Made by a program: the position numbers and the translations under genes. Below the pieces are notes generated by a model. The model did no database searches. It saw nothing but the letters and a program-made list of their open reading frames with translations, and was not told where the DNA came from. A stretch of DNA of 64,000 nt from Fibrobacter sp. (lineage in GTDB: Bacteria; Fibrobacterota; Fibrobacteria; Fibrobacterales; Fibrobacteraceae): contig JAKSIC010000006.1 of NCBI GenBank assembly GCA_024399015.1, positions 1 through 64,000 of the forward strand. The letters run 5' to 3'. The first letter of the stretch is position 1. Every line of letters starts with the position of its first letter. This document shows positions 22,940 to 32,907 of this stretch, piece after piece.

Positions 22940-23761
22940 GTGGAAAAACGAAGTTCAATCATACGCTCTCTGGCCCTATCCGCCATTTTATGCCTGTGGT
23001 GTACCCCATCCAAGGCTTCCGCAGAGATTGAATACGAACTCTCCCCCACCTTGGATATTACACTTTCTGTATTAGGAGCCGCTGCCCAGGGAATCGGTTC
23101 CTACCTTCACAGCCAGATGGAAATCAAGGACCGCGACGCTTTGCGCCCTGCCAAAGACTTCCTCCCCTGGGATAGAAAGTTCATGGGCCGTTACAGCGAA
23201 ACTGCAGATTTAATGAGCGATATTGGATCCGTTATCGCAGTTGCACCCTTGGCCATCGGTGGTTATGCATGGTATAGTGGAGCGTCCAACGGAAAAGAAT
23301 TCGCCACATTCTCCCTTATGTTCTTCCAATCCGTATTATTCCAAAGCGGAATAAACCTGGCGACCCGCTCTTTGGAAATTTGGCCGCGCCCTTACATCTA
23401 TTCTGAATGCGAAAAGGGAAAAGAGGCAGCCCAAAATGCCAAGGGGGAAGCCTACGGTTCCTTCTTTTCGGGCCATGCTTCCGCCGCTTTTACGGTAGCG
23501 GTTTTCGCCTCGGAATGGTATGACCAAGTCTTCCCCAACTCAGCAAATACGGGGCTTGTACGAGCATTGGCATTTTCCTTGGCAGGATTCGAAAGCGTGC
23601 TTCGTGTAGCCGCAGGAAAGCATTACCCCACCGATATTCTTATAGGGGCATTAGTCGGAACCGGTGTAAGTTACGGAGTTCTTACATTGCATAAAAATCG
23701 GAACAAAAAGTTCTCCTTGTGGGCATTTCCAGGTGTAGCAGGCGCCACATTTTTGTTTTGA
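22940..23761 (+). CDS. PAP2-family membrane phosphatase
   Basis: 273 residues, GTG start, signal peptide or first helix MEKRSSIIRSLALSAILCLWC. The three phosphatase signatures are present in adapted form: TRSLEIWPRPYIY (basic residues plus Arg-Pro), SFFSGHASAAF (Ser-Gly-His) and SVLRVAAGKHYPTDILIG (Arg, His and the following Thr-Asp). The family removes phosphate from lipids such as undecaprenyl pyrophosphate or phosphatidic acid on the periplasmic side. The substrate here is unknown. TAGTTTAG lies 4 nt before the start codon and no Shine-Dalgarno sequence is visible. Confidence 0.87.
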   Translation: MEKRSSIIRSLALSAILCLWCTPSKASAEIEYELSPTLDITLSVLGAAAQGIGSYLHSQMEIKDRDALRPAKDFLPWDRKFMGRYSETADLMSDIGSVIAVAPLAIGGYAWYSGASNGKEFATFSLMFFQSVLFQSGINLATRSLEIWPRPYIYSECEKGKEAAQNAKGEAYGSFFSGHASAAFTVAVFASEWYDQVFPNSANTGLVRALAFSLAGFESVLRVAAGKHYPTDILIGALVGTGVSYGVLTLHKNRNKKFSLWAFPGVAGATFLF

Positions 23762-23776
23762 AAACTTTTTATAACA

Positions 23777-23870
23777 ACTAGTTTCAAAATCCTCGGTATA
23801 TATTAAAACCAAGATGGCGCGGGACCGTAAGTTTCAGTCCACAATGTGCGCCTTAAAGGATTAGGCTAGT
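23777..23870 (+). promoter_or_regulatory. Structured leader able to mask the ribosome-binding site of the FISUMP gene
   Basis: Nested perfect pairings lead right up to the start codon. ACTAG (23777-23781) pairs with CTAGT (23866-23870). AATCCT (23788-23793) pairs with AGGATT (23857-23862), which contains the ribosome-binding site. Inside are hairpin GGT/ACC (23795-23810) and a longer hairpin with GGCGC/GCGCC (23816-23852) and inner GGAC/GTCC. It matches no riboswitch consensus I know. A TATATATT sequence at 23797-23804 could instead be a promoter, in which case only the inner hairpin is transcribed. Confidence 0.5.
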
Positions 23871-24563
23871 ATGTTCGTTATTTCTCCAAAGCACATCGTT
23901 ACCGCTTTAGTCGTGTCTGCGTTTTTCGCAAGCACAGGCTTTGCTGCACCCCACAAGATGGGCGTAAAGAAATCCGTGAAGATGAGCAAGGCTAAGACCC
24001 AGATGACTCACCAGAAGAGCGAAGCCTTGGAACAGCCGGCCGCAAATATGTCCGAAGAAGAACTTTTCAAGATGGCCCTGGAAAGCAAGAACATTTCCAT
24101 GGACGGCAAGACCCTCACCGACAAGCGTGACGGCAAGAAGTATTCCATTGAAATTCGCGGGGACAAGGCTTGGATGAAGAAGAACCTTGCATTCAGCATT
24201 TCCACTCCCCGCCAGTGCCTCATGGAAAACGAAGATTTCTGCAAGAAGTATGGTCGTTTCTACAGCCACCAGGAAGCAAACAAGGCTTGCCCCGCAGGCT
24301 GGCACCTTCCCGACGATGGCGAATGGCGCGATTACCAGAAAGATCGTTCCAAGCTTGATTGGAAGGATCTTGGCCAAGGTGGCTGCAAGGATTGGGACGG
24401 CTACTGCGAAAGCTCTACCACAGGTCACTACTGGTCCGCTTCCACCGTCAAGAAGAACACCGGCCGTTCCTGGGAATTCAAGAGCGAAGCCAAGAGCATC
24501 AACCGCACCGACGAAAGCGCAAGCAAGGGCCTCTACGTTCGCTGCGTCGCCGACCTCCGCTAA
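23871..24563 (+). CDS. Exported FISUMP-domain protein (TIGR02145 type)
   Basis: 230 residues with a signal peptide (about residues 1-26, ...STGFA-APH), a Lys/Met/Gln-rich spacer to about residue 75, then the Fibrobacter succinogenes major paralogous (FISUMP) domain. Its signatures are DKRDGKKYSIEIRGDKAWMKKNLAF, RFYSHQEANKACPAGWHLPDDGEWRDY, the Cys-Trp-rich GGCKDWDGYCESSTTGHYWSAS and a final GLYVRCVADLR. The domain is related to SUMF1/C-type-lectin-like surface folds and is extracellular or periplasmic; its function is unknown. It is a monocistronic gene with a structured leader and a strong terminator. Confidence 0.88.
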   Translation: MFVISPKHIVTALVVSAFFASTGFAAPHKMGVKKSVKMSKAKTQMTHQKSEALEQPAANMSEEELFKMALESKNISMDGKTLTDKRDGKKYSIEIRGDKAWMKKNLAFSISTPRQCLMENEDFCKKYGRFYSHQEANKACPAGWHLPDDGEWRDYQKDRSKLDWKDLGQGGCKDWDGYCESSTTGHYWSASTVKKNTGRSWEFKSEAKSINRTDESASKGLYVRCVADLR

Positions 24564-24591: not shown

Positions 24592-24623
24592 AAAAAGGCT
24601 CCGCGAAAGCGGGGCCTTTTTTT
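24592..24623. terminator. Bidirectional terminator between FISUMP gene and znuC
   Basis: AAAAAGGCtCCGC-GAAA-GCGGgGCCTTTTTTT, a stable GNRA-loop hairpin with A and T tracts on both sides. It can end the plus-strand FISUMP mRNA and the minus-strand znuA-znuC mRNA. Confidence 0.88.
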
Positions 24624-24643
24624 ATCAATGATTTTGTTATCTA

Positions 24644-25444
24644 TTAATGTTCGTGACCATGCTCGTGATGGTGTTCATGATGATGTTCATGATGATGTTC
24701 ACAGCAACCCCCGTGTGTGTGATCATGACTGCCCAAAACGCGATGAGGAATACCATGGGCAATCAAGTCCACTTCACAGCCATAGGCATCGGTAATCATT
24801 TCGCGAGTAAGGTTGGAACCTTCGTGGTAATGGACATCCTTGTTGACGCAGACGATGCTCTTCACGCGATTGGAAAGAGCCATCAGGTCGTGTGTCACCA
24901 CCACAATGGTCATGCTGGAACTGAATTCAGCCAGCATATTATAAAGGTTTTCCTGGCCGGCAGCGTCGATATTATTGCTGGGCTCATCCAGGAAGAGAAT
25001 GCGGGGATTACACACCAGGGAGCGGGCAATAAGGACACGCTGGCGTTCGCCGCCGCTCAGTTCCCCAAGACGACGATCCAGGTAGCCCTCCATGTGCACC
25101 TTGGAAAGAGCGGCGGAAACCTCCGGAGACTTCGGCTTAAGACCGATTTTGCCCAGGGCAACGCACTCGCCCACCGTTATGGGGAATTCAATATTCTTGT
25201 TGGTATTCTGGGGAACATACCCCACCGCCACCTTGTTGGACGGAACCTTTTCGCCAAAGAGGCGAACTTCACCAGACTGGGGTTTGAGAAGACCCACGAT
25301 CAAACGCATCAAGGTAGACTTGCCACCGCCATTGGGGCCGATAATGGCAACGAAATCATTTTCCTCGATTTCCAAGTTCACATTGGAAAGCACCGGGGTC
25401 TTGCCGTAGGCGAAAGAAAGATTCTTGATTTCAATGGCGTTCAT
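24644..25444 (-). CDS. znuC: Zinc/manganese-type ABC transporter ATPase with His-rich tail
   Basis: 266 residues. ABC ATPase with Walker A GPNGGGKST (36-44), signature LSGGERQR (129-136), Walker B ILFLDEP and the H-loop VVTHD. It couples ATP hydrolysis to metal import across the inner membrane. The C-terminus is a striking His/Glu tail made of HHHE units (12-bp tandem repeats near 24665-24705) after HDHTHGGCC, likely zinc-binding. It follows znuA after 15 bp with no clear Shine-Dalgarno sequence. No permease (znuB) gene lies in the operon. The symbol is given by family and context; manganese cannot be excluded. Confidence 0.85.
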   Translation of the reverse strand: MNAIEIKNLSFAYGKTPVLSNVNLEIEENDFVAIIGPNGGGKSTLMRLIVGLLKPQSGEVRLFGEKVPSNKVAVGYVPQNTNKNIEFPITVGECVALGKIGLKPKSPEVSAALSKVHMEGYLDRRLGELSGGERQRVLIARSLVCNPRILFLDEPSNNIDAAGQENLYNMLAEFSSSMTIVVVTHDLMALSNRVKSIVCVNKDVHYHEGSNLTREMITDAYGCEVDLIAHGIPHRVLGSHDHTHGGCCEHHHEHHHEHHHEHGHEH

Positions 25445-25459
25445 CGTTTACCAATATAG

Positions 25460-26371
25460 TTAGTCCTTGCGGTTTCCGTCTATGGCGAAAAGCAAAGCCC
25501 TGATGTTCTTTTCGTATTCAAAGGACAGCGGGTCCGTATCCAGAATGACGGCATCCAGTTCACGGGCGATGGTTGTGGCGGCACGCTTGCTGAACTGAGG
25601 CTGCACAAACACGATATGGACGTTATTTGATTTGCCCGTCTTTGCCAGGTTGAACAAGTCACGGGGCTTCGGTTCCTTGCCGTTCACTTCCACAGTCAGC
25701 TGCGTCATTCCGTAGTCCCGGGCGAAGTAGCCGTAAGACGGATGGAATACGATAAAGGTTCTTGCCTGCTGGGGCAGCTTTGCAATGGAGGCGCGCAACT
25801 CGGCATCAAGCTTTTTCAAACGTTCCGTCAGGTCAAACCATCTTTCAATATACAAATCAGCGTTTGCAGAATCCAATTGCACCAGGGCATCGCAAATATT
25901 GCGAGCAACCTGCATCATCTGCAAGGGCGAAGTCCACAGGTGGGGATCCAGTTCCTCCCCTTCGTCGTGATCATCATGTTCTGCGACGGATTTTTCACCT
26001 GCGTGAATTGCGGCAGATTCTACTTCGTGGTGATGATGTTCGTCTTCCTCCATCCAGTTGATATCCTTGGACAGGGAGACAATTTGAACGTTCTTGTTCA
26101 CTCCCTTGAAACGAGGAAGCCAGGCTTCGTCCATGCCGGAACCATCGCTGAAATAAACAGAGGCCTTGGCGAAATCCTTCAAGGTGGATGGCTTAGGCTC
26201 AAAGGTATGGGGATCGGCCCCAGGAGGCAACAAGGTTACCACCTCCAGCTGGTCACCGCCGATTTCAGAAACCACGTTAGCGTAAGGCTGCAAAGTCACA
26301 GCCACAGTCAACTTGGCTGCGGAAACAGAAACGCAAAAAATTGCGAGGATGACGGCAACAAAAAAGCGCAC
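25460..26371 (-). CDS. znuA: Periplasmic zinc-binding protein of a metal ABC transporter
   Basis: 303 residues, GTG start overlapping the stop of the upstream HAD gene. Signal peptide MRFFVAVILAIFCVSVSA-AK. Cluster A-I solute-binding fold: LLPPGADPHTFEPKP supplies the first His ligand, the His/Asp/Glu-rich loop EEDEHHHHE...HDDHDEGEELDPHLW the charged flap and second His, FIVFHPSYGYFARDYG the third His, and the C-terminal Asp in ILDTDPLSFEYEKNI the last ligand. The charged loop is typical of zinc-specific members. It delivers the metal to a permease encoded elsewhere. Confidence 0.92.
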   Translation of the reverse strand: MRFFVAVILAIFCVSVSAAKLTVAVTLQPYANVVSEIGGDQLEVVTLLPPGADPHTFEPKPSTLKDFAKASVYFSDGSGMDEAWLPRFKGVNKNVQIVSLSKDINWMEEDEHHHHEVESAAIHAGEKSVAEHDDHDEGEELDPHLWTSPLQMMQVARNICDALVQLDSANADLYIERWFDLTERLKKLDAELRASIAKLPQQARTFIVFHPSYGYFARDYGMTQLTVEVNGKEPKPRDLFNLAKTGKSNNVHIVFVQPQFSKRAATTIARELDAVILDTDPLSFEYEKNIRALLFAIDGNRKD

Positions 26372-32747: not shown

Positions 32748-32757
32748 AAAGCAAAAA

Positions 32758-32789
32758 GGATTGCCCAGGCAGGGAGACCCAGGCAATCC
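32758..32789 (-). terminator. Terminator of the dcw operon after ftsZ
   Basis: Perfect 8-bp arms GGATTGCC (32758-32765) and GGCAATCC (32782-32789). On the minus strand the hairpin is followed by TTTTT. It lies about 140 nt beyond the ftsZ stop. Confidence 0.8.
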
Positions 32790-32803
32790 CTTTGTGTTGT
32801 GTT

Positions 32804-32907
32804 GAATGCGCACTCGCGCATTCGTGTGTGTGTGTGTTCCTTTTAAGGCGCATTTGGCGTACCCTGCCGAAAGAAATTCAGCAAGGAACAGGGAACTAAG
32901 CCAAATG
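32804..32907 (-). other. Structured 3' untranslated region of ftsZ
   Basis: Between the ftsZ stop and the terminator are two further hairpins: CATTTGGC (32851-32858) pairs perfectly with GCCAAATG (32900-32907), enclosing CCCTG/CAGGG (32862-32866 with 32889-32893), and GAATGCGC-ACTC-GCGCATTC is a perfect hairpin around 32804-32823. A GT/CA dinucleotide run separates them. No coding capacity is seen. Confidence 0.5.

Follow-up and report, generated by a model that had tools for sequence, protein, structure and literature searches.

A hairpin in the leader of the FISUMP gene of a Fibrobacter sp. (23816–23852, plus strand) is, to judge from the comparison of related leaders, a real but modest cis-acting RNA element that is absent from Rfam. 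All positions refer to the window, that is, the whole stretch of 64 000 nucleotides that was analysed. A preliminary description had drawn the hairpin as part of a 94-nt fold that hides the ribosome-binding site (RBS). The helices of that drawing are two separate things, an inner hairpin and a set of RBS-masking helices, and the larger ribosome-hiding fold probably sits mostly in the promoter and not in the main transcript.

Gene locus and neighbouring genes

The FISUMP-domain protein gene (23871–24563, plus strand; start codon ATG at 23871) encodes a product of 230 aa with a signal peptide-like N-terminus and represents the short form of the gene, which occurs among Fibrobacter in two lengths (∼230 aa and ∼340 aa). 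The preliminary description had placed the leader in front of a lineage-specific FISUMP gene, and this assignment was confirmed by a domain match of the product (Fib_succ_major/TIGR02145). Of 80 genomes of the genus, 79 each contained a single strong match to the gene; its named relatives came from Fibrobacter MAGs of horse-faecal, sheep and rumen origin. The 5′ side of the gene is adjoined by a PAP2-superfamily gene of the same direction (22940–23761, plus strand), and a PAP2-like gene was found immediately 5′ of the FISUMP gene in most clade representatives. No terminator was seen between the PAP2 gene and the FISUMP promoter; a weak terminator-like match at 23732–23746, obtained by pattern scan, lies inside the PAP2 coding sequence. 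A terminator-like hairpin with a T run was read by eye from the sequence 3′ of the FISUMP gene (24594–24624, plus strand) and was not returned by the pattern scan for terminators.

Adjacent genes on the minus strand (24644–26371) resemble, from reading of their translations alone, a zinc-type ABC ATPase whose tail is rich in His and a ZnuA-like binding protein that contains a His-rich stretch. A catalogued RNA, ftsZ-DE (RF02985), lies on the same 64-kb stretch (32754–32823, minus strand; 87.4 bits, above the gathering score) and is unrelated to the FISUMP leader element.

Helices and single-sequence fold

All helices named in the preliminary description are present on the plus strand without mismatch: the outer helix CTAG/CTAG (23778–23781/23866–23869), the masking helix AATCCT/AGGATT (23788–23793/23857–23862), GGT/ACC (23795–23797/23808–23810), GGCGC/GCGCC (23816–23820/23848–23852) and the inner helix GGAC/GTCC (23822–23825/23837–23840). 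The minimum free energy fold of 23770–23890 is the drawn structure with a longer outer helix, which comprises up to 18 pairs and extends into the AUG. As a single sequence the fold is only mildly better than chance (−27 kcal mol−1, z −2.1, equalled by 6 of 200 shuffles), and z came to −0.3 to −0.5 when other sequence ends were chosen. The CCTT/AAGG pairing offered as the switched state would require a 1-nt loop and is sterically impossible as a hairpin. Rfam searches at gathering and relaxed thresholds gave no match at the leader, in agreement with the earlier statement that no known riboswitch class is recognisable.

Promoter and transcription start

The octamer TATATATT (23797–23804, plus strand) recurs at the corresponding position in nearly every locus that was read; GTATATT or GGTATATT stands there in a few long-form loci. 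It contains TATATT (23799–23804), the putative −10 box. Among 166 upstream regions from 400 kb of the same genome TATATT was counted 46 times and TATAAT 7 times, and TATATT lay 10–59 nt before a start codon in 36 of its 46 occurrences; because of this dominance and this siting TATATT was taken as the −10 box, apparently that of the genus. A scan with the sigma-70 consensus gave no hit. The conserved element TTRTAAS (TTATAAC, 23769–23775, plus strand) stands at the same position in the leaders of both short-form groups (A and B) and was also present in many long-form loci. It is a possible upstream promoter element; its distance of ∼21 nt 5′ of TATATATT does not match the −35 spacing of sigma-70. 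A search of the available literature for Fibrobacter transcription starts or FISUMP regulation returned nothing.

From the position of the −10 box we infer that the FISUMP transcript starts near 23811, so that the CTAG and AATCCT arms would fall in the promoter, outside the main transcript. The start is probably downstream of 23793, which the preliminary description had itself named as an argument against its fold.

Conserved hairpin in the leader

The hairpin consists of P1 (23816–23821/23847–23852), P2 (23822–23825/23837–23840) and the 3′ bulge ACAAUG (23841–23846, plus strand). Eleven distinct leaders were compared (the window, L087, L042, L043, L051, L008, L049, L014, L097, L090 and L094); common to them were six pairs in P1, four to six pairs in P2 and a 3′ bulge of 6–7 nt with the sequence RCAA(A)KG. 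An alignment of seven leaders was paired in 100 % of its cells and contained two-sided changes at six pairs; its covariation score was reached by none of 500 shuffles, and slid controls were flat. The alignment of 11 leaders, including four held-out members, was 98.2 % paired, a value obtained with an alignment that had been fitted to the model. Alignment by hand agrees and gave additional covariation in the upper P2 pairs.

The covariance model (R1) had a single match in the genome of origin, at the FISUMP leader (E 4e-10), and its strong matches in other genomes were all to this same leader. Held-out leaders were matched at the expected place (L049, 9e-7; L094, 4e-5; L008, 0.002), L090 weakly (E 0.83). 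Weaker R1 matches elsewhere overlapped coding ORFs in the cases inspected and were set aside as chance-like; a loose degenerate DNA pattern applied to 61 genomes matched about as often as the reversed-pattern control and was uninformative. The preliminary description had proposed a covariance-model scan of Fibrobacter genomes for the whole leader, in particular upstream of other FISUMP genes; with R1 the hairpin was found once per genome and only before this FISUMP gene.

The helix sequences change freely while the pairing stays, which points to RNA and away from a DNA operator. In all 11 leaders the fourth (A) and last (G) columns of the bulge are invariant, and its second and third columns change hardly at all; the apical loop varies freely. 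The structure, its restriction to the FISUMP gene and the conservation of the bulge are established by comparison of sequences. For the short transcript the pairing probability of P1 was ∼0.1–0.5 and the leader z was +0.6; energy models thus favour P1 only weakly, and the case for the hairpin is made by covariation, not by energy.

The −10 box is separated from the stem by 10–15 nt and the stem from the ATG by 18–25 nt; in the window the stem lies ∼5 nt from the predicted 5′ end (23811). The leaders of group B, the second clade, carry a smaller AGGC/GCCU hairpin at the same spot, and in some long-form orthologs the leader is very short and has no evident hairpin. Unrelated hairpins occur right after the −10 box in the long-form orthologs L034, L036 and L037 (for example AGGCUUAC-UUCG-GUAAGUCU in L037), which suggests that a 5′ stem-loop at the FISUMP gene is recurrent.

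RBS mask and promoter spacer

The 5′ arm of the proposed mask (CTAG and AATCCT, 23778–23793, plus strand) lies within the promoter spacer and is complementary to 23857–23869; the Shine-Dalgarno region is AAAGGATT (23855–23862, plus strand). The five closest leaders retain the three masking helices to very different extents: 13 of 13 pairs in the window, 10 of 13 in L087, the ortholog of which is 99 % identical as a protein, and 6, 7 and 5 of 13 in the 80 % relatives L042, L043 and L051. The inner hairpin has 10 of 10 pairs in each of the same five. A cis-acting structure, as the preliminary description supposed, is supported for the inner hairpin, which covaries; the masking helices are not retained in the nearest relatives.

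The predicted cost of opening the Shine-Dalgarno region is 0.3–0.5 kcal mol−1 for an RNA that starts at 23811, against ∼4 kcal mol−1 for starts at 23750–23777; the region is predicted to be closed for the latter and open for starts from 23790 on. The mask would therefore matter only for RNA that starts upstream, and the RBS is expected to be open in the main transcript. The computed probability of the mask was ∼1 for RNA starts at 23750–23777 and 0.2–0.9 with longer PAP2 sequence.

Complementarity across the genus was assessed by pairing the 25 nt before the −10 box with the RBS of the same locus and, for comparison, with RBSs permuted between loci. Own-locus pairing exceeded permuted pairing (z −4.7 for 26 representatives; z −3.8, p 0.0004, for 30 clade representatives) in a test that is inflated by species relatedness. 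The signal peaked for spacer positions −20 to −1 against −20 to +9 of the ATG; neighbouring windows were flat except for a second peak at +100 to +129. No such complementarity was seen for 19 other promoters of the same genome. After removal of groups A and B p was 0.04, and 16 further loci, drawn mostly from clades that lack the mask, gave no significant excess (z −0.8, p 0.20); the mask is absent in about half of the clades. Different clades pair with different sequences (CTCGATT/AATCGAG with CCCAT/ATGGG in L025; CCTCTGCAAA/TTTTGTAGAGG in L029), and L040 (CGAAAAATCC/GGTTTTTCG) differs from L150 (CAAAAATCC/GGTTTTTG). The mean RBS opening energy was 8.3 kcal mol−1 in read-through RNA, 6.8 kcal mol−1 with shuffled spacers and 5.2 kcal mol−1 in RNA from the own promoter (p 0.007). 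In each of the 30 representatives the nearest upstream gene is co-directional with the FISUMP gene. Only L029, the locus with the strongest mask, showed a terminator-like site a short way upstream.

Discussion

The observations can be assembled into a model, to which we give an even chance, in which FISUMP is transcribed from a separate promoter (−10 TATATATT) in the short gap after the PAP2 gene. The mRNA would begin near 23811 with a leader of ∼60 nt and an open RBS, and the conserved stem-loop near its 5′ end, two stacked helices with the bulge on the 3′ side, would set the lifetime and hence the output of the single FISUMP mRNA. The stem-loop might protect the 5′ end against RNase E/G-type decay, in the manner of the ompA leader, or its bulge might be recognised by an RNA-binding factor. 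Stabilisation of mRNA by a 5′ stem-loop is known (review PMC7509114), and the presence of RNase E/G homologues in the genome of origin (PF10150, E 7e-79) makes 5′-end-dependent decay plausible. Stabilisers of this type are the E. coli ompA leader and those of recA of Acinetobacter and vacA of Helicobacter. The FISUMP leader is like the ompA type in having its hairpin near the presumed 5′ end, a secreted-protein gene and a free Shine-Dalgarno region; unlike that type it has a conserved 3′ bulge and an unrelated sequence, and its stabilising role is a presumed one.

An ORF of ∼1030 aa in the same genome (L132; genome G000, contig C6, 23050–25440, minus strand) contains two RNase E/G domains in tandem. 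The catalytic DVNTG motif is intact in the first; the second has KVNCK and looks catalytically dead.

The outer inverted repeat, as distinct from the hairpin, may well be functionless and due to chance or to template switching at nearby quasi-palindromes, a reading that we hold to be only slightly short of an even bet. The low significance of the window fold, the absence of the repeat from about half of the clades and its absence from the sister species are all consistent with such an origin; the locus-specific excess over permuted pairs, which is mainly confined to the RBS, argues against it.

It is conceivable, if rather doubtful, that the hairpin is a binding site for an RNA-binding protein or, in an autoregulatory manner, for the FISUMP product, and that occupancy blocks or helps the ribosome 18–25 nt downstream. 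Stabilisation alone would not call for a conserved bulge, so that the conservation of RCAA(A)KG amid varying helix sequences and loop points to a binder, and the occurrence of one site per genome, before one gene, fits as well. Against this stands the lack of a candidate binder and of a match so far between the bulge and a known protein site.

A role for the mask in read-through RNA, which could hold together with the proposed role of the hairpin, is in our estimation unlikely, at about one chance in four. The promoter spacer carried on PAP2 transcripts would pair with the RBS and start codon and silence FISUMP, and RNA from the internal promoter, which lacks the arm, would be translated. That the Fibrobacter promoter doubles as an anti-RBS in this way, with read-through RNA silent and internal-promoter RNA active, is equally tentative; on this reading the two arms would be maintained by changing together in several lineages. 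Since the upstream gene is co-directional throughout and a terminator-like site precedes the promoter only in L029, insulation against read-through would be a natural mechanism for the spacer–RBS signal, which the 19 other promoters lack, and the opening energies and predicted closure of the Shine-Dalgarno region for upstream starts point the same way. The precedent is gene e (lysozyme) of phage T4 (PMC3014915), in which an internal promoter separates the RBS from an anti-RBS arm further upstream, the long RNA being masked and the short one open. The layout is the same here, with a putative promoter between the arms and an upstream gene that runs in the same direction and lacks a terminator, and the same behaviour is predicted; unlike gene e, the Fibrobacter locus belongs to a bacterial operon and its masking, a predicted one, is patchy across species. 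Points against insulation are the loss of the window mask in the closest relatives, the mask-less clades with the non-significant added loci, the weakening of the signal without groups A and B, the terminator-like site upstream of the strongest mask, and the uncertainty of the window mask with longer PAP2 sequence.

The proposal that the whole 94-nt leader is a translational riboswitch or thermosensor with a promoter upstream of 23777 is highly improbable. As in such elements, pairing of the Shine-Dalgarno region with sequence upstream of it is possible, and the single-sequence fold and the near-certain mask for starts at 23750–23777 favour the proposal. Against it, the leader as proposed would include the conserved −10-like TATATATT, with the 5′ arms upstream of this box and probably untranscribed from the own promoter, the mask decays from 13 to 10 to 5–7 of 13 pairs among near relatives, the PAP2 stop codon (23761) is only ∼15 nt from the arm so that the promoter needed would overlap the PAP2 gene, and neither a conserved ligand core, a temperature-sensing feature nor an Rfam class was seen.

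The hairpin is an additional structured leader RNA, supported by covariation, from a phylum in which few regulatory RNAs have been described, and it belongs to a Fibrobacter-specific gene that is carried by nearly every genome of the genus. The locus also offers a testable case of promoter spacers that may have been co-opted in bacteria, as in phage T4, to silence read-through messages.
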